IMG/VR virus record: IMGVR_UViG_3300046665_000306
Coordinates: 56,499-120,498 of that record
From: a virus
DNA: 64,000 nt
Direction: 5' to 3' (one strand)
The stretch's first letter is position 1; each line of letters opens with the position of its first letter. The notes beneath the pieces were generated by a model. It was given only the letters and a program-made list of their open reading frames with translations, was not told where the DNA came from and did not search any database. Shown piece by piece: positions 14,792 to 47,306 of this stretch. Both the position numbers and the translations under genes were made by a program.

Positions 14792-16441
14792 TTAAATCTT
14801 GAAAGGCGTGTCTTCGGCAGACTTAGAAGGCTGTTCCGTCGCTTCGATCTTGATCGAAGAGTGAACCGAAGCATTTTCCTTGACCGCGTCCTGCACCGAT
14901 GAAGCAAGTTCTCGGATCGATTCAAGGTTCTGTTCAAGTTCAGCCACGTTTTCGCGTGTGATCTTTGTGGCGTCGGCAACTACATCCTTGTACTGGTAAA
15001 GGTCTTCCATTGCCTTTACAAGCTCTTCGTTCACTTCGCCAGTTGCGACAGCCACTCTCATGCTTTCCTTCATAGCAATTTCGTTCGTCGCATCATTCAT
15101 CTGAACCATTGTATCACGAGCAATGGTTGCACTTTCAGCAATTGCGGCTTGGCCCACGGCCTGAAGCACGGTAGAAAGTCGATCCGCAACGCCCGCAACG
15201 CCTTGAGTATGCATAACACGCACCTTCTCGACCTGAGACGAGTTTGAATCTGCCATGGTCTTAATTCGAACACTCTGCGTAGAAAGATCAGCAAAAGTCT
15301 TTTCAGTGTCAACGGCGGAACTTGAGAGCACAGTGAGATGATCGTCAATGGCGCGAAGTTCATTGTCTCGCTTCATCTTAGTGATCATTGATTCTTCTTC
15401 GGCGGGTGTCGCTAGAGTTTCGCGCTTCGTCTTGATCTCCGAACCAGCTTCCTTAATACCTTCGCCAAGGATGGCATATGCACTAATCATGGATTGGTTA
15501 GCATCGGTAAGATCATCGATTTGATCTCCCATACCGGTAAGACTGCCACGAATTCCGCCGAGAGCAGACTTAGAAACTGCCACGAATTTCTTAGCCTTTT
15601 CAACAGTGTTGGCAGAATTTCGCTGATGTTCTTCCGCCGAAAGATCGAGCATGGCGCGAATCGTAGCCTTGGCCTTGCCGAATTCCGAATCATCTTCAAC
15701 AGAGACAGGAGCTTGAGCCGAAACTGCCGAAAGCTCTTGCTCCAAGCGAACAATATTGTCTTTGGCCTGAATGATAGAAATTTCATTCAAAGCGATCTTT
15801 TCGCGTGAGGATTGGCGCACCCCGAGCAGGCCGAACAGCGCTTTATCTTCGCTGAGTCGCGCATTTTCATTGGTAAGATCGTTGATCAGTTGCTGAGTTG
15901 TTTCAAAGCGCTGCTTAATGCCGTTGATCTTGCCGTTGAATTCTGTCTCAACGCTACGGTCGTTGCGAATATCTGAGAAGATTTCGTTGGTCTTCCCTTC
16001 TTTTCTCACAACGTGCATCGCGTCGATGATTTCAAGGATTGGCTTCATCGCTTCATTGAATTCGATAAGACCGTCATTCATTGTGGTATAAACTTGCTGA
16101 AGCTGAGCCGTGGTATTCGTATTGGTGACATCAATGATTTTACCAGCCATCGTTTCGCGCTGAAGCTGAAGAAATTCCTTGAATTCATCCAAAGCCTTAA
16201 TCGTGGCCTTGTTTTCTTCCTTCGTGCCCACGGTAGCGAGAGTTTTCGCTACTGCTTTCTGCTTATCTTCCGGCGAAAGCTCAGGATTAAGTACGATCTT
16301 GTAGAACGTGTTAGCCGCGATATTTTCGGCCCGCGTATCCTTGGCCGTTTCGGTCTGTACCGTCTTGGCCTTGACCCCGGTAATTTCCGCGATTCGCGCC
16401 TGACGTGCTTCCTTAAGCTTTGCTGCTCCAAAATCACTCAT
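14792..16441 (-). CDS. Long coiled-coil protein
   Basis: 549 residues, predicted almost fully helical with no membrane segment. Heptad-like stretches run over about 150-250 and 255-520, rich in Ala, Glu, Lys, Asp. Layout recalls TelA-type (toxic-anion-resistance) helical proteins, but I cannot claim homology. AAAGGAG before the ATG. It heads the operon with the Clp-like ATPase and the membrane protein, so it could be a scaffold or client of that motor. Confidence 0.65.
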   Translation of the reverse strand: MSDFGAAKLKEARQARIAEITGVKAKTVQTETAKDTRAENIAANTFYKIVLNPELSPEDKQKAVAKTLATVGTKEENKATIKALDEFKEFLQLQRETMAGKIIDVTNTNTTAQLQQVYTTMNDGLIEFNEAMKPILEIIDAMHVVRKEGKTNEIFSDIRNDRSVETEFNGKINGIKQRFETTQQLINDLTNENARLSEDKALFGLLGVRQSSREKIALNEISIIQAKDNIVRLEQELSAVSAQAPVSVEDDSEFGKAKATIRAMLDLSAEEHQRNSANTVEKAKKFVAVSKSALGGIRGSLTGMGDQIDDLTDANQSMISAYAILGEGIKEAGSEIKTKRETLATPAEEESMITKMKRDNELRAIDDHLTVLSSSAVDTEKTFADLSTQSVRIKTMADSNSSQVEKVRVMHTQGVAGVADRLSTVLQAVGQAAIAESATIARDTMVQMNDATNEIAMKESMRVAVATGEVNEELVKAMEDLYQYKDVVADATKITRENVAELEQNLESIRELASSVQDAVKENASVHSSIKIEATEQPSKSAEDTPFKI

Positions 16442-27482: not shown

Positions 27483-28130
27483 ATGAATAAGTATTGGGGC
27501 AGCTTGAATTGGGGCACGATCCTCACAGTGATCACTTACGCCATCGGCTCAGTATTGGGTCTGGTTGATGTGCATAATTTTAACTATGTCGAATTTTTCG
27601 CGATCTGGACCAGCTATGTTTGCACCCTGATGTGCGTGTTCCAGACGAGGTGGAATTACCCGCTCGGCGCGGTTTCTACCATTCTCTACGCCATTCTATC
27701 TTATCAAGCCAATCTCCCCGCCGTTGGGCTGTTCAACATTCTCCTATCGATCAATTTGATTTATGGCTGGTTCCGTTGGCGCAGCGATGATGTGACTCGG
27801 CCCGTTACCAATCCTAATGCGGCATGGTGGCTCGGATATGTCGGGATCGGGTTGGCCACTTATCTGATCCTAACCATTGTCAATGGTTACTTTGGCTACG
27901 ACCAGACTTGGGTAGACGTTACTACAGCTGTAGTTTATGCCGTGGCTCAAGCCATGCTCGACAACAAACATCGCACATCGTGGACCGTATTCTTTGTCCT
28001 CAATGTCTTGTCGATCTACCTTTATTTCAAGCAGGAAGCTTATTTCGTGGTTATCCAATACGTTTACTTCCTCGGAAATACACTTTATGGTCATTTTGAA
28101 TGGCGTAAGTCAGAAGAAGTTTTCAATTAA
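27483..28130 (+). CDS. pnuC: PnuC-type nicotinamide riboside transporter
   Basis: 215 residues with about seven transmembrane segments. Family signs: the repeated W/Y-rich half-structure, QTRWNYPLGAVSTILYAILS, LFNILLSINLIYGWFRW, and the C-terminal YVYFLGNTLYGHFEWRKS. PnuC carries nicotinamide riboside across the inner membrane, where NadR phosphorylates it. NadR is encoded about 1 kb downstream, so the two form an import-and-convert pair. AAGGAG before ATG. A promoter with hairpin follows. Confidence 0.85.
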   Translation: MNKYWGSLNWGTILTVITYAIGSVLGLVDVHNFNYVEFFAIWTSYVCTLMCVFQTRWNYPLGAVSTILYAILSYQANLPAVGLFNILLSINLIYGWFRWRSDDVTRPVTNPNAAWWLGYVGIGLATYLILTIVNGYFGYDQTWVDVTTAVVYAVAQAMLDNKHRTSWTVFFVLNVLSIYLYFKQEAYFVVIQYVYFLGNTLYGHFEWRKSEEVFN

Positions 28131-28134
28131 ATCA

Positions 28135-28163
28135 TTGACAGTAGCCCCTAACGGGGCTACACT
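28135..28163 (+). promoter_or_regulatory. Promoter with palindrome in its spacer
   Basis: TTGACA (28135-28140), 17 bp, TACACT (28158-28163). The spacer holds the perfect repeat GTAGCCCC-TAAC-GGGGCTAC (28141-28160), either the pnuC terminator stem or an operator. Confidence 0.6.
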
Positions 28164-28188
28164 GCTATCTAGATAAAGGAGGGTGTTT

Positions 28189-28398
28189 ATGCTGAGATTT
28201 CTAATAATTTACGGCCTCGTCGCCTTTGGTACTTGGGCCGGATATGACAGAATTTATAGAGAGGCTTGCCCTTCGGAGAAGTTCTCATACGGTCCTGTCA
28301 CGGCGGGAATTGCATGGCCCTTCTTCGCCGGTCTAGCCATTGCCAGCGCCACCACTGATAGGATTTCCAATCCTGTCACTTGTGACAATAAATTTTAA
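28189..28398 (+). CDS. Small membrane protein (69 aa)
   Basis: N-terminal signal-anchor (MLRFLIIYGLVAFGTWAG), a second apolar segment near 40-56 and two Cys. AGGAGGG five bases before ATG. Confidence 0.6.
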   Translation: MLRFLIIYGLVAFGTWAGYDRIYREACPSEKFSYGPVTAGIAWPFFAGLAIASATTDRISNPVTCDNKF

Positions 28399-28410
28399 AA
28401 GGAGGTTTTG

Positions 28411-28626
28411 ATGCGTTATAAGAAATGGACCAGTGCATATCTTCTTAACGAAGCGTTGGAATCTCCCACGATGAAAGCAGAAGTCACGGTTAACGGCGAA
28501 ACTATTGCTGTCAGCGCCGTGACAGAGCTTGAAACATTTGGCGTGACTTGGAAGCGTAACGGCGTTCTTGTCACGGAAGAAGATGCGGCAGAAGTTTTGG
28601 CTCGATGGGCCGTGGAAGGAGTTTAA
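28411..28626 (+). CDS. Unknown small protein (71 aa)
   Basis: Begins MRYKKWTSAYLLNEALES; beta-rich with Thr/Val strands, helical end. AGGAGG upstream. Confidence 0.6.
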   Translation: MRYKKWTSAYLLNEALESPTMKAEVTVNGETIAVSAVTELETFGVTWKRNGVLVTEEDAAEVLARWAVEGV

Positions 28627-28631
28627 ATTTT

Positions 28632-29105
28632 ATGACGAGAGACGAAGTTAAAGCGAATCGAATCAAGTGGGCCAATTTCCTTCTCAATAAGAAGAGGAAG
28701 AAGGCTACCGGCATACTTGATAAGGGCGACGGTGCTAGATGCTGTTTGGGCCACGGCGCGTACTGCTTAGGCGTGTCTCGTCACAGACTTGGTGAAACGT
28801 ATGTCACGAGTTTCGAGTATGGAGATGGGCGCGCAACATATTCCGCTCCTTCTGAATTGGTAGACCTTGTCGGACTGTGGGACAGTGATGGCATGACTGA
28901 AGGCGAGGATTTAGTTATTGATGGTCTTAACTTTTCTTCACTAGCCTCTGCCAATGATGCTGATAGGCATTATGCCTTTGAAACAGGCGTTGAAAGCAGA
29001 GAAATAAACATCACTCCTCAAATGATTGGGACATATCTCCTCACCGTGATCGAAGGCGGCGACGATACTCCATTCCGCCCACTGTCGGAGTATCCCGAAG
29101 TATGA
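28632..29105 (+). CDS. CCLG-motif protein (157 aa)
   Basis: NRIKWANFLLNKKRKKATGI then DGARCCLGHGAYCLGV. The same arrangement (helix, basic stretch, DG-x-x-CCLG) occurs in the gene at 33962-34303, so the two are paralogues of a common phage family of unknown role. AAGGAG lies upstream. ATGA overlap with nadR. Confidence 0.65.
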   Translation: MTRDEVKANRIKWANFLLNKKRKKATGILDKGDGARCCLGHGAYCLGVSRHRLGETYVTSFEYGDGRATYSAPSELVDLVGLWDSDGMTEGEDLVIDGLNFSSLASANDADRHYAFETGVESREINITPQMIGTYLLTVIEGGDDTPFRPLSEYPEV

Positions 29106-30115
29106 CCACAACAGGACTATGCGTGATCAGTGGCCTCTTGCCGACACGTGGTCATCAATATCTAATTGATTTTGGTTCTAAATTCGTGGATCGGCTCCAT
29201 GTCATTGTCTGTATCAGGTCGTTTGAACCACGACTCACTCTGGATCGAGCCGAAGTTTTGGCACAGCATTATGCTGGAACGAATGTAACGATCCACGAGC
29301 ACTACGCCGATGATGCGCCTCAGAATGATGATGGCACGCCTGAGTTTTGGGACTATTGGTCCAATCTCGTCAACAAAGCCATCACGAAGCGTAAAAAGAT
29401 TGATTACTTCTTCGCCTCGGAAAAATACGGCGCGCGCTTCGCTGAAGCTCTTGGCATCACCTTTGTCCCGGTAGATATTGGCAGGGAAATCCTAAGCGTT
29501 ACAGGGACAGGTGTCAGGAAAAATCTGGCTGAAAATTTTAAATACATTCTGCCTGAGTATCAAAACCGTTTGGCCAAGACTGTGTGCCTCTACGGTCAAG
29601 AATCAGTAGGTAAAACCACTATGTCTAAGTGGCTCGCCAATAAGTTGGAAGGCCGTTGGATTCACGAATGGGCCAGACCTTATCTTGAAGAAGTCGGCGC
29701 TGAGATAACGGATGAAAAAATGTTAAACATTGTGCGTGGCCAGTACGCAGCGATGATTTCCGCACCTATGGCATTGTTTAATATAAGAGATACTGATCTC
29801 CTTTCCACTATTGGTTATTATAAAATCTATGGCGGAACTATGCCTGAAGAACTTATCCAAAAATTTAACTTGACAAAGAGTGATCTTTATGTAATGTTAA
29901 ATGACAATATCCCTTTCGAGCCTGATCCTTTGAGATACGGCGGTGATAAGAGGGAAAGTGAGATGCAGTTCTGGATCGACCTGTTGGACGAATATGACTG
30001 CAAATATCATGTCGTGGACAGCACTGATATTAAAAAGCAACGCAAAGAAGTTGTAGAAGCTGTTTATGATTTTTTCACCGATCTACGCGAGATAGAGGAA
30101 TTTATTCGTGACTGA
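29102..30115 (+). CDS. nadR: NadR-like NMN adenylyltransferase / ribosylnicotinamide kinase
   Basis: 337 residues, two domains. Residues about 5-150 are the adenylyltransferase: a GLLPTRGHQYLIDFG nucleotide-binding start (TRGH in place of the usual T/H-x-G-H) and SVTGTGVRKNL (ISSTxxR-like). Residues about 160-330 are the P-loop kinase: GQESVGKTTMSKWL, HEWARPY and a DTDLLST substrate region. In bacteria the kinase turns nicotinamide riboside into NMN, and the other domain makes NAD+. The regulatory helix-turn-helix of E. coli NadR is missing, as in most phage forms. It pairs with pnuC. Confidence 0.85.
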   Translation: MTTTGLCVISGLLPTRGHQYLIDFGSKFVDRLHVIVCIRSFEPRLTLDRAEVLAQHYAGTNVTIHEHYADDAPQNDDGTPEFWDYWSNLVNKAITKRKKIDYFFASEKYGARFAEALGITFVPVDIGREILSVTGTGVRKNLAENFKYILPEYQNRLAKTVCLYGQESVGKTTMSKWLANKLEGRWIHEWARPYLEEVGAEITDEKMLNIVRGQYAAMISAPMALFNIRDTDLLSTIGYYKIYGGTMPEELIQKFNLTKSDLYVMLNDNIPFEPDPLRYGGDKRESEMQFWIDLLDEYDCKYHVVDSTDIKKQRKEVVEAVYDFFTDLREIEEFIRD

Positions 30116-30461: not shown

Positions 30462-30872
30462 ATGAACTACAAATGGCTTACCTTCAACTGCGTCACGCTC
30501 TTTATCGTGGCCTTTCTGATCCAGTTTTATGATGGATTTAATCAACTACTAGCTCTGGATCACACCTACGTCTCATTATTCATTGTAGCTCAATATGTTG
30601 CGATCAGCACCTATCTAGGCATCAAGAAAGAAGCCTCTAATTTCAACGCAGTCAGATACTATGCCAATATGCTTCCGCTAATTGGAATGGTTGGAACGCT
30701 TACCGCTGTGATGTTGGTTATGTACGAAGCTCAGATATCAGGCGCGAAAACAATCGCGGATTTTCACGGCCTCTTCTCAATGTTCACCACAACACTCTTT
30801 GGTGTGTTCTTCCTAGGCATGTCCAAGTTTCAGCTTGGTCTAGCATTTGGAGAGTACAAAGATGCTGACTAA
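30462..30872 (+). CDS. MotA/TolQ/ExbB-like ion-channel subunit
   Basis: 136 residues, four transmembrane segments (about 5-24, 31-51, 68-88, 104-125). The third and fourth match the proton-channel core: MLPLIGMVGTLTAVMLVMY (MotA/ExbB: P-x-L-G-x-x-G-T-x-x-G) and a F-T-T-T-L-F-G-V-F segment. It is shorter than MotA (about 290) or ExbB (about 240), with no large cytoplasmic loop. The next gene encodes a single-span partner with the expected Asp, so together they look like a minimal ion-driven motor. Purpose in a phage unknown. Confidence 0.65.
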   Translation: MNYKWLTFNCVTLFIVAFLIQFYDGFNQLLALDHTYVSLFIVAQYVAISTYLGIKKEASNFNAVRYYANMLPLIGMVGTLTAVMLVMYEAQISGAKTIADFHGLFSMFTTTLFGVFFLGMSKFQLGLAFGEYKDAD

Positions 30873-31449
30873 ATCACTATCAGTCTCGTACATCGACTTC
30901 CTTTGGGCTTTATGTGGCGTCTTTCTCCTCCTGTTCTTAATTTCTGACGTTCAGGTAGAGAAGGCGAAGGGGAATATCATTGATCCGGCCCAATTCCTAG
31001 TGGAAATGACATGGACCGATGATAGCCCCAACGATATTGACCTCTGGATGAGTAATCCTAACAACGATATTGTCTACTACCACACCAGAGAAATCGGCGG
31101 AATGACCCTAGACACAGACAATCTAGGTAGAAATAATACTTTTACTGATCCAGCTGGTAATCTGATTGTCAATCACACACGTCGCGAAGTTGCTAGTATT
31201 AGAGCAGTAATGGCAGGTACGTATACCGTCAATGTGATGCTTTTTGATAAAGTAACCAAAGGATCAGAAACGGTCAAGATCAGGGTTTTCAAGTTGAATC
31301 CTTATAAAGATATTATTGAAAAAGTGGTCGTGCTAGAAACGGTCAAGCAAGAATCCACCATATTACAGTTTGATGTTGATAAGGACGGCAATTTTATCAG
31401 TAAATCCGAAGCTGAACAGATTTCTCTCTTTGCGAGGTTGAAGGCATGA
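30862..31449 (+). CDS. MotB/ExbD-like partner with outer beta domain
   Basis: 195 residues. The single transmembrane helix is SVSYIDFLWALCGVFLLLFL; its Asp sits where MotB and ExbD carry the proton-binding Asp (Y-x-D-x-x-x-x-L). The periplasmic part has TDDSPNDIDLWMSNP, a D-x-D-L-W pattern known from beta-sandwich domains (DUF2135-like), instead of an OmpA peptidoglycan domain. Start MLTKSLSV with GGAG upstream overlaps the MotA-like gene by 11 nt, so both are coupled. Confidence 0.6.
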   Translation: MLTKSLSVSYIDFLWALCGVFLLLFLISDVQVEKAKGNIIDPAQFLVEMTWTDDSPNDIDLWMSNPNNDIVYYHTREIGGMTLDTDNLGRNNTFTDPAGNLIVNHTRREVASIRAVMAGTYTVNVMLFDKVTKGSETVKIRVFKLNPYKDIIEKVVVLETVKQESTILQFDVDKDGNFISKSEAEQISLFARLKA

Positions 31450-31913
31450 TTATCCCATCGATCATTATTCTCGGACTTCTACTTGTCACAGTTTTTGTTG
31501 GATTTAAATATAACTGGAAACTCTCACTAGCTATTTTCATTCCAATGCTTTATCTCGGTTATTGGACCGTAGCCACTCAGGTTCCAAAATACTTTGGCTA
31601 TGCCGTGCCAATCAATTTCGCTGAAATGGAAAATCAGGCCTTATTGATCAGCGGTTATGATGGCGGTAAACTTATTTACCTGCTCATCATAGAGAAAGGC
31701 ATCAAGGAACCACGCCTCGTCAGTATGCCAAATAATGACGAAAATAGGGCAATATTTAACGAACTTACCAAAAAAATCAAAAACGGGCAAGCCGCCATTA
31801 TTAAGAAAAACAATAAAAAAGGCGAAAAGGGTAAGGGCGATGGTCAATCCAGTATGGGCGATATTGAAGGTGTAGAGATGAAGGATCAAAATATCCTTCA
31901 AAAGGAGGGATAA
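31446..31913 (+). CDS. Third membrane protein of the motor-like operon
   Basis: 155 residues: two N-terminal transmembrane segments (about 3-21, 27-45), a soluble part and a strongly basic, Gly/Lys-rich tail (IIKKNNKKGEKGKGDG). ATGA overlap with the MotB-like gene. Likely an accessory of the same complex; no family known. Confidence 0.6.
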   Translation: MIIPSIIILGLLLVTVFVGFKYNWKLSLAIFIPMLYLGYWTVATQVPKYFGYAVPINFAEMENQALLISGYDGGKLIYLLIIEKGIKEPRLVSMPNNDENRAIFNELTKKIKNGQAAIIKKNNKKGEKGKGDGQSSMGDIEGVEMKDQNILQKEG

Positions 31914-33736: not shown

Positions 33737-33972
33737 CTCTATTTGATTATTATTTGCTTTGGGCCGGAACAGGGCTTTTGGGCTGTGTCATAGGATTCTA
33801 TATAGATTATTATCTAGGGAATGACTCTAGATTAAAGGATTTGCTAGGATTTATCACTCTTGCTCTAACTATCGGACCTTTTGTTGCCGTAATGGCTATA
33901 TCGTATTTTTGCTCAGAATTTAAAATTTTTGACAAAGTCGTTATTAAGGGAAGGAATAAGAATGAGGATTGA
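33733..33972 (+). CDS. Small membrane protein (79 aa)
   Basis: Two hydrophobic segments (about 7-25 and 38-60) joined by a polar loop, basic tail. ATGA overlap with the preceding membrane protein gene. Confidence 0.65.
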   Translation: MTLFDYYLLWAGTGLLGCVIGFYIDYYLGNDSRLKDLLGFITLALTIGPFVAVMAISYFCSEFKIFDKVVIKGRNKNED

Positions 33973-34303
33973 GAACAACCATAAAGAACTGCGAGCGGCG
34001 TGGGTCGCTGCGCTGCGATCCGGCGAATATAAGCAGGGAGTGAACAATCTTCGCACCCCTGACGGGGAATACTGCTGCCTCGGCGTGGCAGGCAAAATCA
34101 TTGGACTAAGTGATGATTTGCTAGGAGATTGGACCGAGGATGAATATCCTTATGACACGATTCAACAGGCATTTGGTCTATCAGATTGTTTGGGAGCGTA
34201 TGCAGAAGGCCAACTTTATTCACACAACGACCACGACGGCTTGACTTTCTCCCAAATCGCAGATATAATCGACGCCGAACCAGAAGGTTTGTTCATCGAT
34301 TAA
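33962..34303 (+). CDS. CCLG-motif protein (113 aa)
   Basis: MRIENNHKELRAAWVAALRS then TPDGEYCCLGVAGKI: paralogue of the gene at 28632-29105. Common in phages, no known role. GGAA upstream of the ATG, which overlaps the previous stop. Confidence 0.65.
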   Translation: MRIENNHKELRAAWVAALRSGEYKQGVNNLRTPDGEYCCLGVAGKIIGLSDDLLGDWTEDEYPYDTIQQAFGLSDCLGAYAEGQLYSHNDHDGLTFSQIADIIDAEPEGLFID

Positions 34304-39753: not shown

Positions 39754-39793
39754 GAAGATTCCGCTTGACAAAAGCGGAATCTTCTGTTATAAG
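39754..39793 (+). promoter_or_regulatory. Promoter inside a 13-bp hairpin cassette
   Basis: Perfect repeat GAAGATTCCGCTT/AAGCGGAATCTTC (39754-39784), 5-nt loop GACAA. The -35 TTGACA (39765-39770) spans the loop; 17 bp later is TATAAG (39788-39793). Drives the NadM-Nudix and NAMPT genes. Could also terminate upstream transcripts, though there is no T tract. Confidence 0.75.
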
Positions 39794-39830
39794 TCGAATG
39801 TTAAATGAAATGGCAAGAGAAGGAGTTTCT

Positions 39831-40901
39831 ATGCCGGGTATTAAATACGACTACGGCGTCTTCATTGGACGCTATGCACCAATGCACGACGGTCATTTTA
39901 AAGTAATGACCGAAGCACTTGAGCAATGCGATTATTTGATCGTAGTTTGCGGTTCCGATAATATGGCGCGGAACACCAGAACCCCCTTCACAGCATTAGA
40001 GCGTCAACACATGATTCGTCTAGCCACGAATCATAATGAACGGATTCTGCTTACAAGTGTTGGCGATTATCCTTACAATGATAATCTCTGGCTCGCAGAG
40101 GTTCAGCGCGCCGTAAATGAAGCCATCGTGTTGAACGAAAAGCAGCACACAGTTAGTTACACGAATAAAGGCTTTAAAGATTATAACTACAAAATAGCTT
40201 TGGCCGGAATGCACAAAGATGCCAGTAGTTTTTATCTGAAGAAGTTCCCTCAATACGAATCTATTGCAGTGACGCCTGACATGATCGGGAGTGTTGTACT
40301 GAGTGCTACCGAAATCAGGACAAAACTTTTCACCGGAGCGTTTGATACGGTGAAGCACTTGCATCCAGAGGTACAATCCCTAATTCTTGGTGACATGAAT
40401 GCGCGCCCTGATATTTGGGACAGGCTTCGATCCGATTGGGAATATGAACTAGGCTACGAAGCGAAATGGGGCAAAGGTCCACACACCACGGTAGACAATG
40501 CTGTGATCCAAGCCGGTCATATCCTTCTCATCCAGAGAGGGAATGAGTATGGCGAAGGTCTATATGCTCTTCCGGGTGGTTTTGTAAATCGTGAACGATT
40601 GCTTCACGCAGCTGTTCGAGAACTTCGCGAAGAGACTAAACTAAAAGTACCTGAGAAGGTTCTTTTTGGCTCATTAAAGGCTGTTAAGGTCTATGATGAT
40701 CCATTTAGGAGCAATCGCAGTCACATCATCACTCACTGCCACAAATATGTGCTTGAAGATGTGAGCGCTGGCCTTCCCAAAGTCAAGGGTAGTGATGACG
40801 CCAAATGGGCAGGTTGGGTGCCTATTTCTGAACTAAAACAAATGCGTGGTCAGTTCTTTGAGGACCATGAGAGTCTTATCCAGTCAATTTTAACAGCATA
40901 A
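39831..40901 (+). CDS. NadM-type NMN adenylyltransferase-Nudix hydrolase
   Basis: 356 residues. Residues about 5-180 are a nucleotidyltransferase: GVFIGRYAPMHDGHFKVM (H-x-G-H), NTRTPF for the nicotinamide, and SATEIRTKL (ISGTxIR-like). Residues about 215-350 are a Nudix hydrolase: GGFVNRERLLHAAVRELREE fits G-x5-E-x7-R-E-x2-E-E. The first domain makes NAD+ from NMN and ATP; the Nudix part may remove ADP-ribose or sense NAD. Known as the NadM-Nudix fusion. AAGGAG before the ATG; upstream open frame is promoter. The NAMPT gene follows in the operon. Confidence 0.85.
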   Translation: MPGIKYDYGVFIGRYAPMHDGHFKVMTEALEQCDYLIVVCGSDNMARNTRTPFTALERQHMIRLATNHNERILLTSVGDYPYNDNLWLAEVQRAVNEAIVLNEKQHTVSYTNKGFKDYNYKIALAGMHKDASSFYLKKFPQYESIAVTPDMIGSVVLSATEIRTKLFTGAFDTVKHLHPEVQSLILGDMNARPDIWDRLRSDWEYELGYEAKWGKGPHTTVDNAVIQAGHILLIQRGNEYGEGLYALPGGFVNRERLLHAAVRELREETKLKVPEKVLFGSLKAVKVYDDPFRSNRSHIITHCHKYVLEDVSAGLPKVKGSDDAKWAGWVPISELKQMRGQFFEDHESLIQSILTA

Positions 40902-40916
40902 ATGAAGGAGCTTCAT

Positions 40917-42320
40917 ATGTTTAAACGTAATCCCGTAATCTCAACAGACAGTTATAAAATTTCACATTTTAAGCAGTATCCTCCCGGTACTACTGAAGTA
41001 AGCTCATATATTGAATCTCGCGGCGGGCCATTCAATAATGTTGTCTTCAATGGCCTCCAAGGCTTTATGATGGAGAAACTTGAAGGTCCAAGAATTACCA
41101 TCGAAGACGTTTTCAACGCAGAAAAAGTCGCGGAAGCTCATGGCGAACCTTTCAACAGGGAAGGTTGGGAGCGTATTGTTTATAAGCACGGCGGCATGTA
41201 CCCTGTAGAGATTCAAGCCCTTCCCGAAGGATTTGTGACACGTCCCGGCGTTCCTTTGGTACAAATTAAGAACACTGATCCTGAACTTCCATGGCTGACT
41301 TCTTATCTGGAAACTTCTTTGCTGCGCTCGATATGGTTCCCGGTAACGGTAGCCTCTCTCAGCCGTTCTATCAAAGAAGTTATTTATGATAACCTGAAAG
41401 CGACTTCTGATAATCCAGAAGCCGAACTTCCGTTCAAGCTGCACGATTTTTCGGCTCGCGGCGTATCTTCTCAAGAAAGTGCAGAGATTGGCTCAACTGC
41501 TCACCTCCTAAACTTTATGGGAACGGATAGCATTGAGGCAATTCCTTACTTGCAATACGTCTACGGCTATGCAGACATGCCGGGATATAGCATTGCTGCA
41601 TCCGAGCATAGCACTATCACTAGTTGGGGCAGGGAAAATGAAATTCTTGCCTACAGTAACATGATTGAGCAATTCGGCGGCGAAGGAAAAATCTACGCCT
41701 GCGTCAGTGACAGTTACGATATCTATAAAGCTGTGACTGAAATGTGGGGCAATGTGCTCAAGGAAAAGATTATCGCTAAAGGTGGAACCTTGGTGATCAG
41801 GCCAGACAGCGGTGATCCTGTAGAAATCACGCTTGAAGTCGTGAAGCGATTGGATGACGCATTTGGCAGCACCATTAATTCTAAGGGTTACAAGGTTCTA
41901 CATCCCTCGGTTAGAATTATTCAGGGTGATGGAATTAACATTGATTCTATTAAAGCGATAGGTGAAAACTTTAAAGCCAATGGATATAGTGGTTCCAATA
42001 TAGCGTATGGTATGGGCGGCGCTCTTCTTCAGCGAATTGATCGTGACACGATGAAATTTGCTATGAAGGCAAACGAAATTGTAGTCAATGGCGAACCTCG
42101 CGAAGTCTACAAAGACCCTGTTACTGACACTGGCAAGCGCTCCAAGCGAGGTAGACAAGCCGTTGTAGCTTCCCATCATGGACACATTGTGATCCCTGAG
42201 AAGGATTGGATAGGCACAGGAGAACATAACTTCCTACAGCCTGTGTTCCGAGACGGCGTTATTCTAAAGCGTTGGACTTGGGATGAAGCTAGGGCTTACG
42301 CCTCGTTAAACACTATGTGA
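40917..42320 (+). CDS. nadV: Nicotinamide phosphoribosyltransferase
   Basis: 467 residues, full length for NAMPT/NadV. Family signs: TDSYKISHFKQYPPGTTEVSSYI at the start (substrate-binding Tyr/Lys/Pro), YIESRGG, DFSARGVSSQESA (near 185), SIAASEHSTI with the catalytic-region His, and VIRPDSGDPVE (phosphoribosyl binding, near 300). It joins nicotinamide and PRPP to NMN, which the enzyme upstream turns into NAD+. Together they equal the two-step 'NARP2' NAD+ rebuilding route described for phages that resist NAD-depleting defences. AAGGAG six bases before ATG. A strong terminator follows. Confidence 0.9.
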   Translation: MFKRNPVISTDSYKISHFKQYPPGTTEVSSYIESRGGPFNNVVFNGLQGFMMEKLEGPRITIEDVFNAEKVAEAHGEPFNREGWERIVYKHGGMYPVEIQALPEGFVTRPGVPLVQIKNTDPELPWLTSYLETSLLRSIWFPVTVASLSRSIKEVIYDNLKATSDNPEAELPFKLHDFSARGVSSQESAEIGSTAHLLNFMGTDSIEAIPYLQYVYGYADMPGYSIAASEHSTITSWGRENEILAYSNMIEQFGGEGKIYACVSDSYDIYKAVTEMWGNVLKEKIIAKGGTLVIRPDSGDPVEITLEVVKRLDDAFGSTINSKGYKVLHPSVRIIQGDGINIDSIKAIGENFKANGYSGSNIAYGMGGALLQRIDRDTMKFAMKANEIVVNGEPREVYKDPVTDTGKRSKRGRQAVVASHHGHIVIPEKDWIGTGEHNFLQPVFRDGVILKRWTWDEARAYASLNTM

Positions 42321-43874: not shown

Positions 43875-46019
43875 ATGAAAACAAATACAGTAGCTAATGA
43901 TGACGTGCTGGTTCATGGCGCGCGGCAGACCAGAAAGTTTAGCATCGCGGCTAATGGTAAAGCCTTCAAAATTCTTATCGACGGCATTTACTCAAATAAA
44001 ATTCAAGCCATTGTCAGGGAAATTTCTTCTAACGCTTTTGATGCACATATCGGGGCGAATAGGAGCGAAACTCCTTTCGATATTCAACTTCCCAATCTTC
44101 TTGATCCAAGTTTCAGCGTCAGAGATTATGGCACCTCACTGTCTCACGAAGACATTATGGGTCTTTATACCACTTTGTTTGAAAGCACGAAAGAGGATTC
44201 TAACGATGAAATCGGTAAGTTTGGTCTCGGATCGAAGACGCCATTTGCCTATACCGACAATTTCACTGTAACAGCCTTTCTTCGTGGCACGAAGCGTGTC
44301 TATGCTGCATATATCGATGTCAAGGGCGAGCCTAATATCTCCCTCATGGCTTCGGAAGACACGGACGAACATGATGGCCTAATGGTTTCATTCCCGGTTA
44401 ACTCCAAGGATTGTGAACGCTTCAGGGTTGAATGTGAAAAAGTAGTCGAAGGTTTTGATATTAAGCCAAATATTCGTGGCGCTAAAATCTCGTTGAAGCG
44501 CCACGGCGAGACCATCAAAGAAGGCTCTAACTTCAAGGTCTATCCTAATGGCGGGGCGCGCGCCAAGCAAGGCTGCGTAATTTACCCCATTGATCTTGAC
44601 GCCCTGCCCTCATTGACACAGCAGCAGAAGAATATCCTGACTTCTGATATTTTAATTGATTTTCCAATTGGCGAACTTGATATCACGCCGAGCCGCGAAA
44701 TGCTGAGCTATGACGATATCACGATCCAGAATATTTTGGATATGGCTGAGAAAATTGACGCCGAAATCTTAGGCGATATGGAACAGCAATATTCTAAGAT
44801 GAGAACTATGCATGAGGCGCGATGCTTCATGACAAGGCATAAAAATGCTGCACTCAAGACTATCAGCAATTTCGCAACCAATCTACGGTTCAACGGCAAG
44901 ACCGTGTCCAGCCATTCCAACATGCAGCGCGACAAGCTTAAAAAAATCTACGGCGCAAGCATTTATAATGTTGATGGCTATGACATTAGGAACTTGAAAA
45001 CGCTAAAATACAAAGGCGATAAGGGTTATGTTACGAGTTGGGACGTTGATGAAGGAACGATGTTTCTTGTCGAAGATTATCGTGACCCTAATAAGGCAGT
45101 TAAACTAGTCAATGCAAGGATTCGCAACAATTTAGGTGATCATACCAATATCGTCTGGATCAGAGATTACGGTATGACGGACAAGCAATTTAGGCAGTTG
45201 CGTAAGCTACTCGGCTACCCACCTAAGTTTTATAAACTTTCGGACTTCCAACTCCCGGTTCGTGAGAAGACTGTCAGGTCTTACAATTATGACCCTGTGC
45301 CTCGCATCGCGCGCCACGAAATCCGTGCCGAGAAAGTGAATAGTAGCAACCAGACCTACGAATATATCTTCGATCTGAATAATCTCTCGCAAGACACCAA
45401 ATATCTTTTTTTCTATAAGGGATATTTCTTAAGCAATGAGGCAGATGCAGACAGCGGCGTAGTCAATATTAATAACTATTTTACCAAGGAAGAGCTTGAC
45501 AGTTTTATCGTTGTTCGTAATAAGCACTTGGAAAAAATTAAAAAATTAGGATTCACCAATGCTTTGACCGAAAAGCGTGACGCACTTGAGCAAATTCTCG
45601 ATTTCCAAGCGTTTAACGCGCGGGCTGAGTTAGATAAAGAAATGAACCATTGGATTAAAAAATATGCCAATGACTTAAGTGCTTTAGAGTATGACAGTGA
45701 CACTTCGTTTAAAAAAGTGCTTGACTTTTTACGTAGATATGCTAATAACGATGAGAGTGACACCAACAGCGCTAACATTGCGTTGTGGAAACGACTCGTT
45801 CCTCTCTCAGCCTATGTCGCTAAAAAAGATGAATTCCCTGTAGAATTCACAGGTGCTGACACTCTCAGCTATTGGGTAGATAAATTTAAAGCGGATTACC
45901 CTCTCGTAAATCTGTATCTCCCGACATATACCAGCAGTGAATTTTACAAAAATTTAGAACATATTTTTAATTACATCAAAATGGTTGACAAAGAAAATGG
46001 CCAAAATATTATTACATAA
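43875..46019 (+). CDS. rIIA: RIIA-like GHKL ATPase
   Basis: 714 residues (T4 RIIA 725). The N-terminus has a GHKL ATPase fold: N-box REISSNAFDAH (Glu 49, Asn 53), G1 RDYGTS (83-88), G2 GKFGLGSK (114-121). The rest is alpha/beta and helical with no transmembrane helix. In T4, RIIA with RIIB acts at the inner membrane, lets the phage grow on lambda rex hosts and affects lysis timing; biochemistry is unclear. rIIB follows one short gene later, the T4 order with an insertion. Confidence 0.9.
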   Translation: MKTNTVANDDVLVHGARQTRKFSIAANGKAFKILIDGIYSNKIQAIVREISSNAFDAHIGANRSETPFDIQLPNLLDPSFSVRDYGTSLSHEDIMGLYTTLFESTKEDSNDEIGKFGLGSKTPFAYTDNFTVTAFLRGTKRVYAAYIDVKGEPNISLMASEDTDEHDGLMVSFPVNSKDCERFRVECEKVVEGFDIKPNIRGAKISLKRHGETIKEGSNFKVYPNGGARAKQGCVIYPIDLDALPSLTQQQKNILTSDILIDFPIGELDITPSREMLSYDDITIQNILDMAEKIDAEILGDMEQQYSKMRTMHEARCFMTRHKNAALKTISNFATNLRFNGKTVSSHSNMQRDKLKKIYGASIYNVDGYDIRNLKTLKYKGDKGYVTSWDVDEGTMFLVEDYRDPNKAVKLVNARIRNNLGDHTNIVWIRDYGMTDKQFRQLRKLLGYPPKFYKLSDFQLPVREKTVRSYNYDPVPRIARHEIRAEKVNSSNQTYEYIFDLNNLSQDTKYLFFYKGYFLSNEADADSGVVNINNYFTKEELDSFIVVRNKHLEKIKKLGFTNALTEKRDALEQILDFQAFNARAELDKEMNHWIKKYANDLSALEYDSDTSFKKVLDFLRRYANNDESDTNSANIALWKRLVPLSAYVAKKDEFPVEFTGADTLSYWVDKFKADYPLVNLYLPTYTSSEFYKNLEHIFNYIKMVDKENGQNIIT

Positions 46020-46341
46020 TACCTATGGCTACTACTGGCTCCCAAAAGAAATCGTTATGCGTTATCTGGAACTAGCAGGTCTGTCATATATTTTTGACCC
46101 TGATGGTGGGTGGAGCAACGAAAAGAAATGGACAGTTAACGGCAAGCCGTTTGATCCAGACGATGAAATCGAGCGTCACGACACTTTACTTGTCCAAGCC
46201 GTGGAAGAATTCGAAGACTCTTTCGGGAGTCATTTAAACATTGAAGAAGTACCAGCTGGTACGCATTACATGATTGAAGATTATGACGGAAAAGAAATGA
46301 TCCGTATTCGAGAAAATATTAATTGGAGAATAGCAGAATAA
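45997..46341 (+). CDS. Unknown protein between rIIA and rIIB (114 aa)
   Basis: MAKILLHNTYGYYWLPKEIV; acidic alpha/beta. Overlaps rIIA by 23 nt and rIIB by 1 nt (TAATG). In T4 the two r genes are adjacent, so this is an addition that may belong to the same function. Confidence 0.65.
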   Translation: MAKILLHNTYGYYWLPKEIVMRYLELAGLSYIFDPDGGWSNEKKWTVNGKPFDPDDEIERHDTLLVQAVEEFEDSFGSHLNIEEVPAGTHYMIEDYDGKEMIRIRENINWRIAE

Positions 46342-47306
46342 TGACTTTTGGATTTGTACAAACTGGTCGCGGCGGCGTCAATCTTTTCTTTGGCGCTAAG
46401 CCAGTTGCGGTAGACCCGACCCACCTCTATTATAACGAAATTTTGGAAGAATTGAAGAAAGGTGCAACGTCTTGGAGCGTGGATCGACTCAAGGAGCTTT
46501 CCAACATCCCTGAAGCGATTAAGGGCCTGCTTTATGGTGACGTAACTGTCACAGATGGTGAAATTTATTATAAAAATCACGTCGTGCATAACACTCTGAC
46601 CAACAAAATGATCGAACTGATTCGCGAAGGTTGGGACGTTGGTATTTGGGCCAACTTCTTGAATAATGTGATGAAGAACCCTTCACAAACTGCTGTTGAC
46701 GAACTATATCTGTTTCTTGAAGCGGCGCAAATGCCCCTCACATCAGATGGCCACTTCCTAGCATTTAAGAAGGTACGCGATGACTACACCAGTATCCACG
46801 ACGGAAAGACCGATAATAGTATTGGGTCAAAACCTTCTATGCCTCGCGAAGAAGTCGATCCCGACCGTGACCGTCATTGCAGCCGTGGTCTTCATTTTTG
46901 TGCTCATAGTTACTTAGGTTCTTTCGGTAGCACCGTAGGTCATCGTGTCGTTGTGGTTAAAATCAACCCCGCCGATGTTGTCGCCATCCCTTCAGATTAT
47001 GCTAATGCAAAGGGTAGGGCTTGGACCTATGAAGTCGTAGATGAAATTGATAATCCCGGCAAGGGTGAGCGTGACAAGCGTTTCAATGTTGCGGTAGATG
47101 ATTCGTGGGACGCTCCCGAGGAACTAGCCCTTGGTGATACTCCTAGTGATCTTCTCTTTGGCGACATTTATACCGCTAAGGAAATCCTTGACAAGGTGAA
47201 CGAAGTAGGGTCTGTCAGGGGTGCGGGTCGAGCCCTTGGAATCGCTAAGTCAACTTTTGGCGATTGGGTTAAGAAGGCTAAGGAAATCGTTTCACAGGAG
47301 GATTAA
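46341..47306 (+). CDS. rIIB: RIIB-like protein
   Basis: 321 residues (T4 RIIB 312). Conserved stretch: LTSDGHFLAFKKVRDDYTSI, DNSIGSKPSMPREEVD, then HCSRGLHFCAHSYLGSFGS and VKINPADVVAIPSDYANAKG, all as in T4 RIIB. The C-terminus ends in a helix-turn-helix-like segment (GAGRALGIAKSTFGDWVKKA). Partner of RIIA. Translational coupling through TAATG. Confidence 0.9.
   Translation: MTFGFVQTGRGGVNLFFGAKPVAVDPTHLYYNEILEELKKGATSWSVDRLKELSNIPEAIKGLLYGDVTVTDGEIYYKNHVVHNTLTNKMIELIREGWDVGIWANFLNNVMKNPSQTAVDELYLFLEAAQMPLTSDGHFLAFKKVRDDYTSIHDGKTDNSIGSKPSMPREEVDPDRDRHCSRGLHFCAHSYLGSFGSTVGHRVVVVKINPADVVAIPSDYANAKGRAWTYEVVDEIDNPGKGERDKRFNVAVDDSWDAPEELALGDTPSDLLFGDIYTAKEILDKVNEVGSVRGAGRALGIAKSTFGDWVKKAKEIVSQED

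Follow-up and report, generated by a model that had tools for sequence, protein, structure and literature searches.

The window analyzed here, a 64,000-nucleotide stretch corresponding to bases 56499-120498 of a 120,498-bp IMG/VR virus record, carries three overlapping genes on its plus strand, which we refer to as A, B, and C. Gene A (30462-30872) encodes a 136-aa MotA/TolQ/ExbB-type subunit, gene B (30862-31449) a 195-aa MotB/ExbD-like protein, and gene C (31446-31913) a 155-aa protein composed of a two-helix hairpin and a small domain. All three reading frames are present where the first-pass annotation of this DNA had placed them. The genes are tightly coupled: B begins at the ATG at 30862, 11 nt inside the 3' end of A, and C begins in an ATGA overlap with the stop codon of B.

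The phage setting of the locus was confirmed by the terminase and the RIIA/RIIB homologues encoded by the 120-kb record, the latter two being homologues of the T4 proteins that lie side by side at 43875-47306 of the window. A DNA primase and NAD-salvage genes are also encoded in the window. The NAD-salvage set (27483-30115 and 39765-42320) comprises a PnuC-like transporter, a NadR-like adenylyltransferase, an NMN adenylyltransferase/NUDIX-like protein, and a nicotinamide phosphoribosyltransferase. The module itself sits among replication/metabolic genes, away from recognized lysis genes, a placement that is shared by other lytic-type phages and suggests early or middle expression there. A 549-aa protein (14792-16441, minus strand) belongs to no PHROG family, and its only relative among phage records, at 45% identity, is found in the Agrobacterium jumbo phage Atu_ph07. 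Two small proteins (28605-29105 and 33929-34303) have in common a CCLG-type motif (ARCCLGHGAYCLG and EYCCLGVAGKIIG, respectively) and may be paralogues belonging to an unnamed family.

Sequence and predicted structure of the three proteins

Hydropathy analysis of the window A protein predicted four helices, with a cytoplasmic loop of ~12 residues between helices 2 and 3 and a C-terminal tail of ~14 residues. Its chromosomal homologues (see below) are longer by roughly 100 residues, most of which lie between these same two helices. When searched alone, the window protein matched Pfam MotA_ExbB at E = 8e-4, which is under the cut-off, and the chromosomal homologues clear that cut-off (E about 1e-8). 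A profile built from 50 A proteins was compared with the PDB and matched ZorA (E = 1e-9), 8vvn, which is a 696-aa protein with a MotA/TolQ/ExbB domain (2e-9), TolQ (6e-6), PomA (1.5e-4), and ExbB (1e-3). Judged from these profiles, the similarity of A to known motor subunits is above chance.

The putative channel of A is recognizable in two motifs, LPLIGMVGT (residues 71-79) and TTTLFG (residues 109-114). The first channel helix contains Gly75, Gly78, and Thr79 within PLIGMVGT (residues 72-79, 30675-30698), and the second contains Thr111 and Gly114 within TTLFG (residues 110-114, 30789-30803). Comparison of 136 distinct A proteins showed Gly75, Gly78, Thr111, Gly114, and the loop residue Asp33 to be nearly invariant; position 79 is mostly Thr, with Asn in some homologues. 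The channel segment had been described as Pro/Gly-Thr; its Gly and Thr residues hold up well, but the Pro is found in only 3 of 50 proteins and is not conserved.

AlphaFold2 modeling of B predicted a helix at residues 4-30 that is joined by a linker of low confidence (31-43) to a beta-sandwich; the latter spans residues 45-182 (30994-31407), has a mean pLDDT of 92.1, and would form the outer domain. The helix carries Asp12 (30895-30897), the putative proton-binding residue, and this alignment column holds an Asp in each of the 102 distinct viral homologues whose sequence covers it. The first-pass annotation had proposed a MotA/ExbB-like and MotB/ExbD-like pair and had named absence of the Asp from homologues as grounds for abandoning the idea. 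The profile matches of A and the presence of the Asp in every one of these viral copies bear the pairing out.

Among genome copies the same column holds Asp in 20 and Val or Ile in 12. In one chromosomal clade of B (L048-L050, L054, L063-L073, and L085-L087), the helix Asp is lost to Val or Ile and a Lys occurs four residues further on, while the A protein keeps its channel Thr. Asp-dependent flux is thus not universal in the family, and these chromosomal motors, judging by the substitution, may be uncoupled or work differently.

The outer domain of B had been described as a D-x-D-L-W beta module rather than an OmpA domain, and this description agrees with our results: a beta-sandwich was predicted, and no OmpA match to B was found. 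The DIDLW motif (residues 58-62, 31033-31047) is followed by LDTDNLG (residues 83-89, 31108-31128), which reads LDRDDxG in the family. Asp58 and Asp60 of the first motif (NDIDLW with its preceding residue) and Asp86 of the second are invariant in 136 of 136 proteins, Gly89 is likewise invariant, and Glu109 is invariant wherever a residue is present. A Foldseek search of the PDB with this domain returned one confident but distant match, to 2qng, a protein of unknown function (E = 3.5e-4, TM 0.44-0.50); the next match was 2lge, a calcium-bound protein (E = 7.5e-3). The acidic motif might form a calcium site. TolR and ExbD are absent among the sequence matches and the listed fold matches of B, and no family for B was found in Pfam, NCBIfam, PHROGs, or PADLOC. 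A DUF2135/YfaP or TerD domain, which we had suspected, was not supported by Pfam, and a PPC domain reached only E = 0.08. We also considered phrog_1735 as a known phage family for the module and rejected it, as only the beta-domain is in common: this Vequintavirinae protein of 672-673 aa (L007:4768-6786) has a domain related to that of B, and adjacent A and C genes are absent.

For C, AlphaFold2 predicted a helical hairpin (residues 2-19 and 24-50) followed by a small beta/alpha domain (residues 65-121, 31638-31808), with a mean pLDDT of 84.4. The basic loop between the two helices suggests that this domain is probably periplasmic. No significant structural or sequence relative of C was found, nor any family for it in Pfam, NCBIfam, PHROGs, or PADLOC. 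With its two helices, C gave no match to TonB or TolA.

Occurrence of the module in phages and bacteria

With the aim of finding further copies in phages and prophages, as had been recommended, we searched phage records, IMG/VR contigs, and bacterial genomes and recovered the module from rhizobial phages, environmental contigs, three 16-3-like prophages, and a cellular operon. When B was searched by tblastn against 50,697 phage records, 27 matched. Rhizobium and Sinorhizobium phages account for 26 of these, RefSeq duplicates among them, and in the 27th, from a Salmonella phage, the match is confined to the beta-domain. A chromosomal query added one more phage, RHph_TM3_3_14B. The rhizobial carriers span several genome types, namely, temperate 16-3-like phages (in which the module corresponds to p038/p040/p042), 68-kb N3_19-like phages, 153-158-kb Pootjesviridae, and the 171-kb I1_18. 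In the rhizobial phages examined, A lies upstream and C downstream of B, and the three genes bear no functional annotation; in PHROGs, no family describes A, B, or C. Gene order in two other phages, the 120-kb Rhizobium phage RHph_X66 and the Mesorhizobium phage Cp1R7A-A1, differed too much for a synteny comparison to reveal an empty site.

Two scans of IMG/VR, whose result sets partly overlap, yielded 36 loci in one and 93 relatives, of which 80 were kept, in the other. Collectively, about 100 environmental viral contigs contain the module, T4-like contigs included; IMG/VR contigs may be misassigned, though checks on several of these bore out the presence of phage hallmark genes. The module-bearing contigs reach 342 kb, a T4-type portal gene was detected on 3 of the 8 contigs tested (E < 1e-110), and on contig L026 a phage DNA polymerase adjoins the module. 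The order A-B-C is kept in 72 of the 80 loci; in four of the others C lies slightly further downstream, and the remaining four are cut by contig ends. This order, its recurrence in chromosomal operons, and the gene overlaps uphold the proposal that the third membrane protein is part of the unit. The view that these are not standard phage genes holds for catalogued isolates outside the rhizobial phages, but copies turn up in many environmental phages as well as in a cellular operon.

Secreted peptidases are found near some copies. The 16-3-like phages encode a trypsin-like peptidase with a signal sequence (Pfam Trypsin_2); its gene follows the lysis genes and immediately precedes A, frequently with an overlap. 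In the N3_19-like phages another such peptidase is encoded downstream of the module. The secreted trypsin-like peptidases coupled to the module or near it in these two groups include those at L005:4247-5146, L001:9285-9977, and L128:2994-3704. The window itself yielded no such peptidase in a crude motif scan, and the peptidase was rejected as a universal partner.

The A-B-C operon is also present on the chromosomes of some Alpha- and Gammaproteobacteria, including Rhizobiales and gammaproteobacterial metagenome-assembled genomes. Our sampling covered parts of the Pseudomonadota, where the operon was found in 17 of 399 genomes at E < 1e-20. Within one order, 28 of 249 genomes contained it; the query genome is counted here, as are some copies that probably belong to prophages. 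The neighbors of the chromosomal copies are ordinary, non-defense genes (by eye, for example, TRAP transporters and RluD/YfiH). A search for conserved chromosomal partner genes showed that only Sel1-repeat proteins recur, beside some of the operons, and that most other neighbor clusters consist of spurious ORFs of GC-rich DNA. In the Rhizobiaceae, the family of Shinella that also includes hosts of 16-3-type phages, a full-length match was found in only 4 of 249 genomes, so that most members appear to be without the operon that their phages carry. Three of these four copies are 16-3-like prophages with the peptidase, an exonuclease, and other phage genes, and one appears chromosomal.

We analyzed the relationships of the B proteins in a careful tree of 69 proteins and a quick tree of 106, both unrooted. 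Both trees place the window B with lytic-type rhizobial phages in a clade. The larger tree, which leaves out the very long-branched genome rows L077 and L112, groups 29 of the 30 genome copies in one supported clade (SH-aLRT 98) within viral diversity; the remaining copy (L078) is in a 16-3-like prophage context. We put forward, only tentatively, that the three genes could be a distinct, viral-owned motor lineage that evolved largely in phages and works in the envelope of the infected cell, and that the chromosomal operon was captured once.

A candidate proton-driven motor and its relation to known systems

The conserved channel residues of A, together with the Asp of B, most likely reflect a proton-driven motor of the 5:2 type, as far as sequence can indicate. 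In such an assembly, five A subunits would surround two B helices, protons would reach Asp12 of B and pass along the Thr/Gly-lined channel of A, and their passage would turn or strain B relative to A. Work would then be delivered periplasmically through the beta-sandwich of B, with C as the partner receiving or gating it. Since A is almost without a cytoplasmic part, the output is placed in the periplasm and ZorA-like signaling to cytoplasmic effectors is unlikely; the coupling of a secreted peptidase gene to A in the 16-3-like phages likewise points to the periplasm. We therefore regard it as probable that A, B, and C constitute a proton-driven MotA/TolQ/ExbB 5:2-type membrane motor that would work in the periplasm and remodel or hold the envelope, its stoichiometry, flux, and role being deduced. 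The motor would be made during infection or from a prophage, and the host proton gradient would power the remodeling or holding of the envelope. Its biological role is the least certain step of this proposal; most plausibly, the motor would alter conditions for superinfecting phages or keep the envelope intact during host shutdown.

The presence of A-B-C operons on the chromosomes of free-living bacteria suggests an ordinary envelope function, and the module might accordingly be a substitute Tol-like or Ton-like energizer that preserves envelope integrity or powers uptake while infection proceeds. Its position amid replication/metabolic genes in lytic-type phages, where such help would be needed, is in keeping with this. 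Host cells, however, should already possess Tol and Ton motors, the module encodes no partner resembling TonB or TolA, and the operon is missing from most Rhizobiaceae chromosomes; we consider this explanation rather unlikely. The same position among replication/metabolic genes, away from recognized lysis genes in the window and other lytic-type phages, speaks against a part in lysis, in which the module would dissipate the proton gradient or disrupt the envelope at the end of infection. That role would suit the 16-3-like phages, where the module follows lysis genes and a secreted peptidase, but the chromosomal copies are stably kept, and we judge it very unlikely.

Two further explanations turn on the resemblance to Zorya. 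Among solved structures, ZorA matches A best, and temperate phages and prophages, in which superinfection defense pays, carry the module, as might be expected of a phage-borne, Zorya-like inter-phage defense that detects how a second phage disturbs the envelope and acts by proton leak or periplasmically, without nucleases. Against this stand the missing ZorA tail, an extension that is required for Zorya defense (PMC11890865), and the lack of a nuclease/helicase partner. In addition, PADLOC gave no match of A, B, or C above E = 0.29, and the chromosomal copies lie among ordinary genes with no evident defense island, which leaves this explanation distinctly improbable. Alternatively, A and B could be decoys, that is, truncated subunits that poison host motors (Zorya, Tol) by mixed assembly. 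A is indeed shortened, and phages are presumably under pressure to block Zorya-type defense. Yet one subunit would suffice for this purpose and the channel residues of a decoy should decay, whereas A is kept together with a matched B, whose Asp is intact, and with a conserved third gene; we hold decoys to be the case with very little probability.

If the proton-driven motor reading is correct, the host envelope is a site where phages perform work powered by protons, with an output domain and a third subunit of their own. We found no report of a phage-encoded member of the 5:2 motors in the open-access literature, and the literature found describes bacterial machines. Being compact and recurrent, the module would lend itself to structural study as a small motor, and the function of the unnamed bacterial operon would become testable with laboratory phages of Sinorhizobium and Rhizobium such as 16-3.

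Known motors of this kind serve motility, Ton, Tol, gliding, secretion, and Zorya (PMC9389320, PMC12204202, PMC12505986). By profile, the closest solved relative of A is the ZorA of Zorya ZorA/ZorB (PDB 8qyy, 8qyd), and, as in Zorya, the partner has a single Asp-bearing helix and a periplasmic domain. Although ZorA is the best PDB match, we do not assign the module to Zorya: the 136 residues of A lack the long cytoplasmic tail, and neither a scan of the immediate neighbors in the window nor the annotations next to its relatives showed ZorC/ZorD or ZorE effector genes, a third membrane protein being present instead. The outer domain of B is a beta-sandwich, unlike the presumed peptidoglycan-binding domain of ZorB. 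With TolQ-TolR and ExbB-ExbD (with TolA/TonB), the module has in common the motor family, the Asp-bearing helix, the periplasmic output, and a third membrane protein nearby. It differs from them in the four predicted helices of A, the outer fold of B, which is not that of TolR/ExbD, the two-helix hairpin of C, and the lack of tolB, pal, and a TonB/TolA-type transducer gene, and membership in TolQRA or ExbBD-TonB was rejected. The flagellar stators MotA/MotB and PomA/PomB resemble it in the four-helix topology of A, the Thr/Gly channel segment, and the Asp in the B helix. Stator membership was rejected as well, because both the large cytoplasmic torque-generating, rotor-contacting region of A and the OmpA-like domain of B are absent. 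The systems that combine a TolQ-like subunit with a vWA transducer (PMC12204202), whose function is unknown, likewise pair that subunit with an unorthodox Asp-bearing partner that has a globular periplasmic domain; the domain is vWA there and a beta-sandwich here, gene C is not described there, and no viral copies are reported. The sequence hallmarks of the 5:2 superfamily are nonetheless present in the phage module, namely, a homologous A with conserved channel Gly and Thr residues and a partner with one Asp-bearing transmembrane helix.
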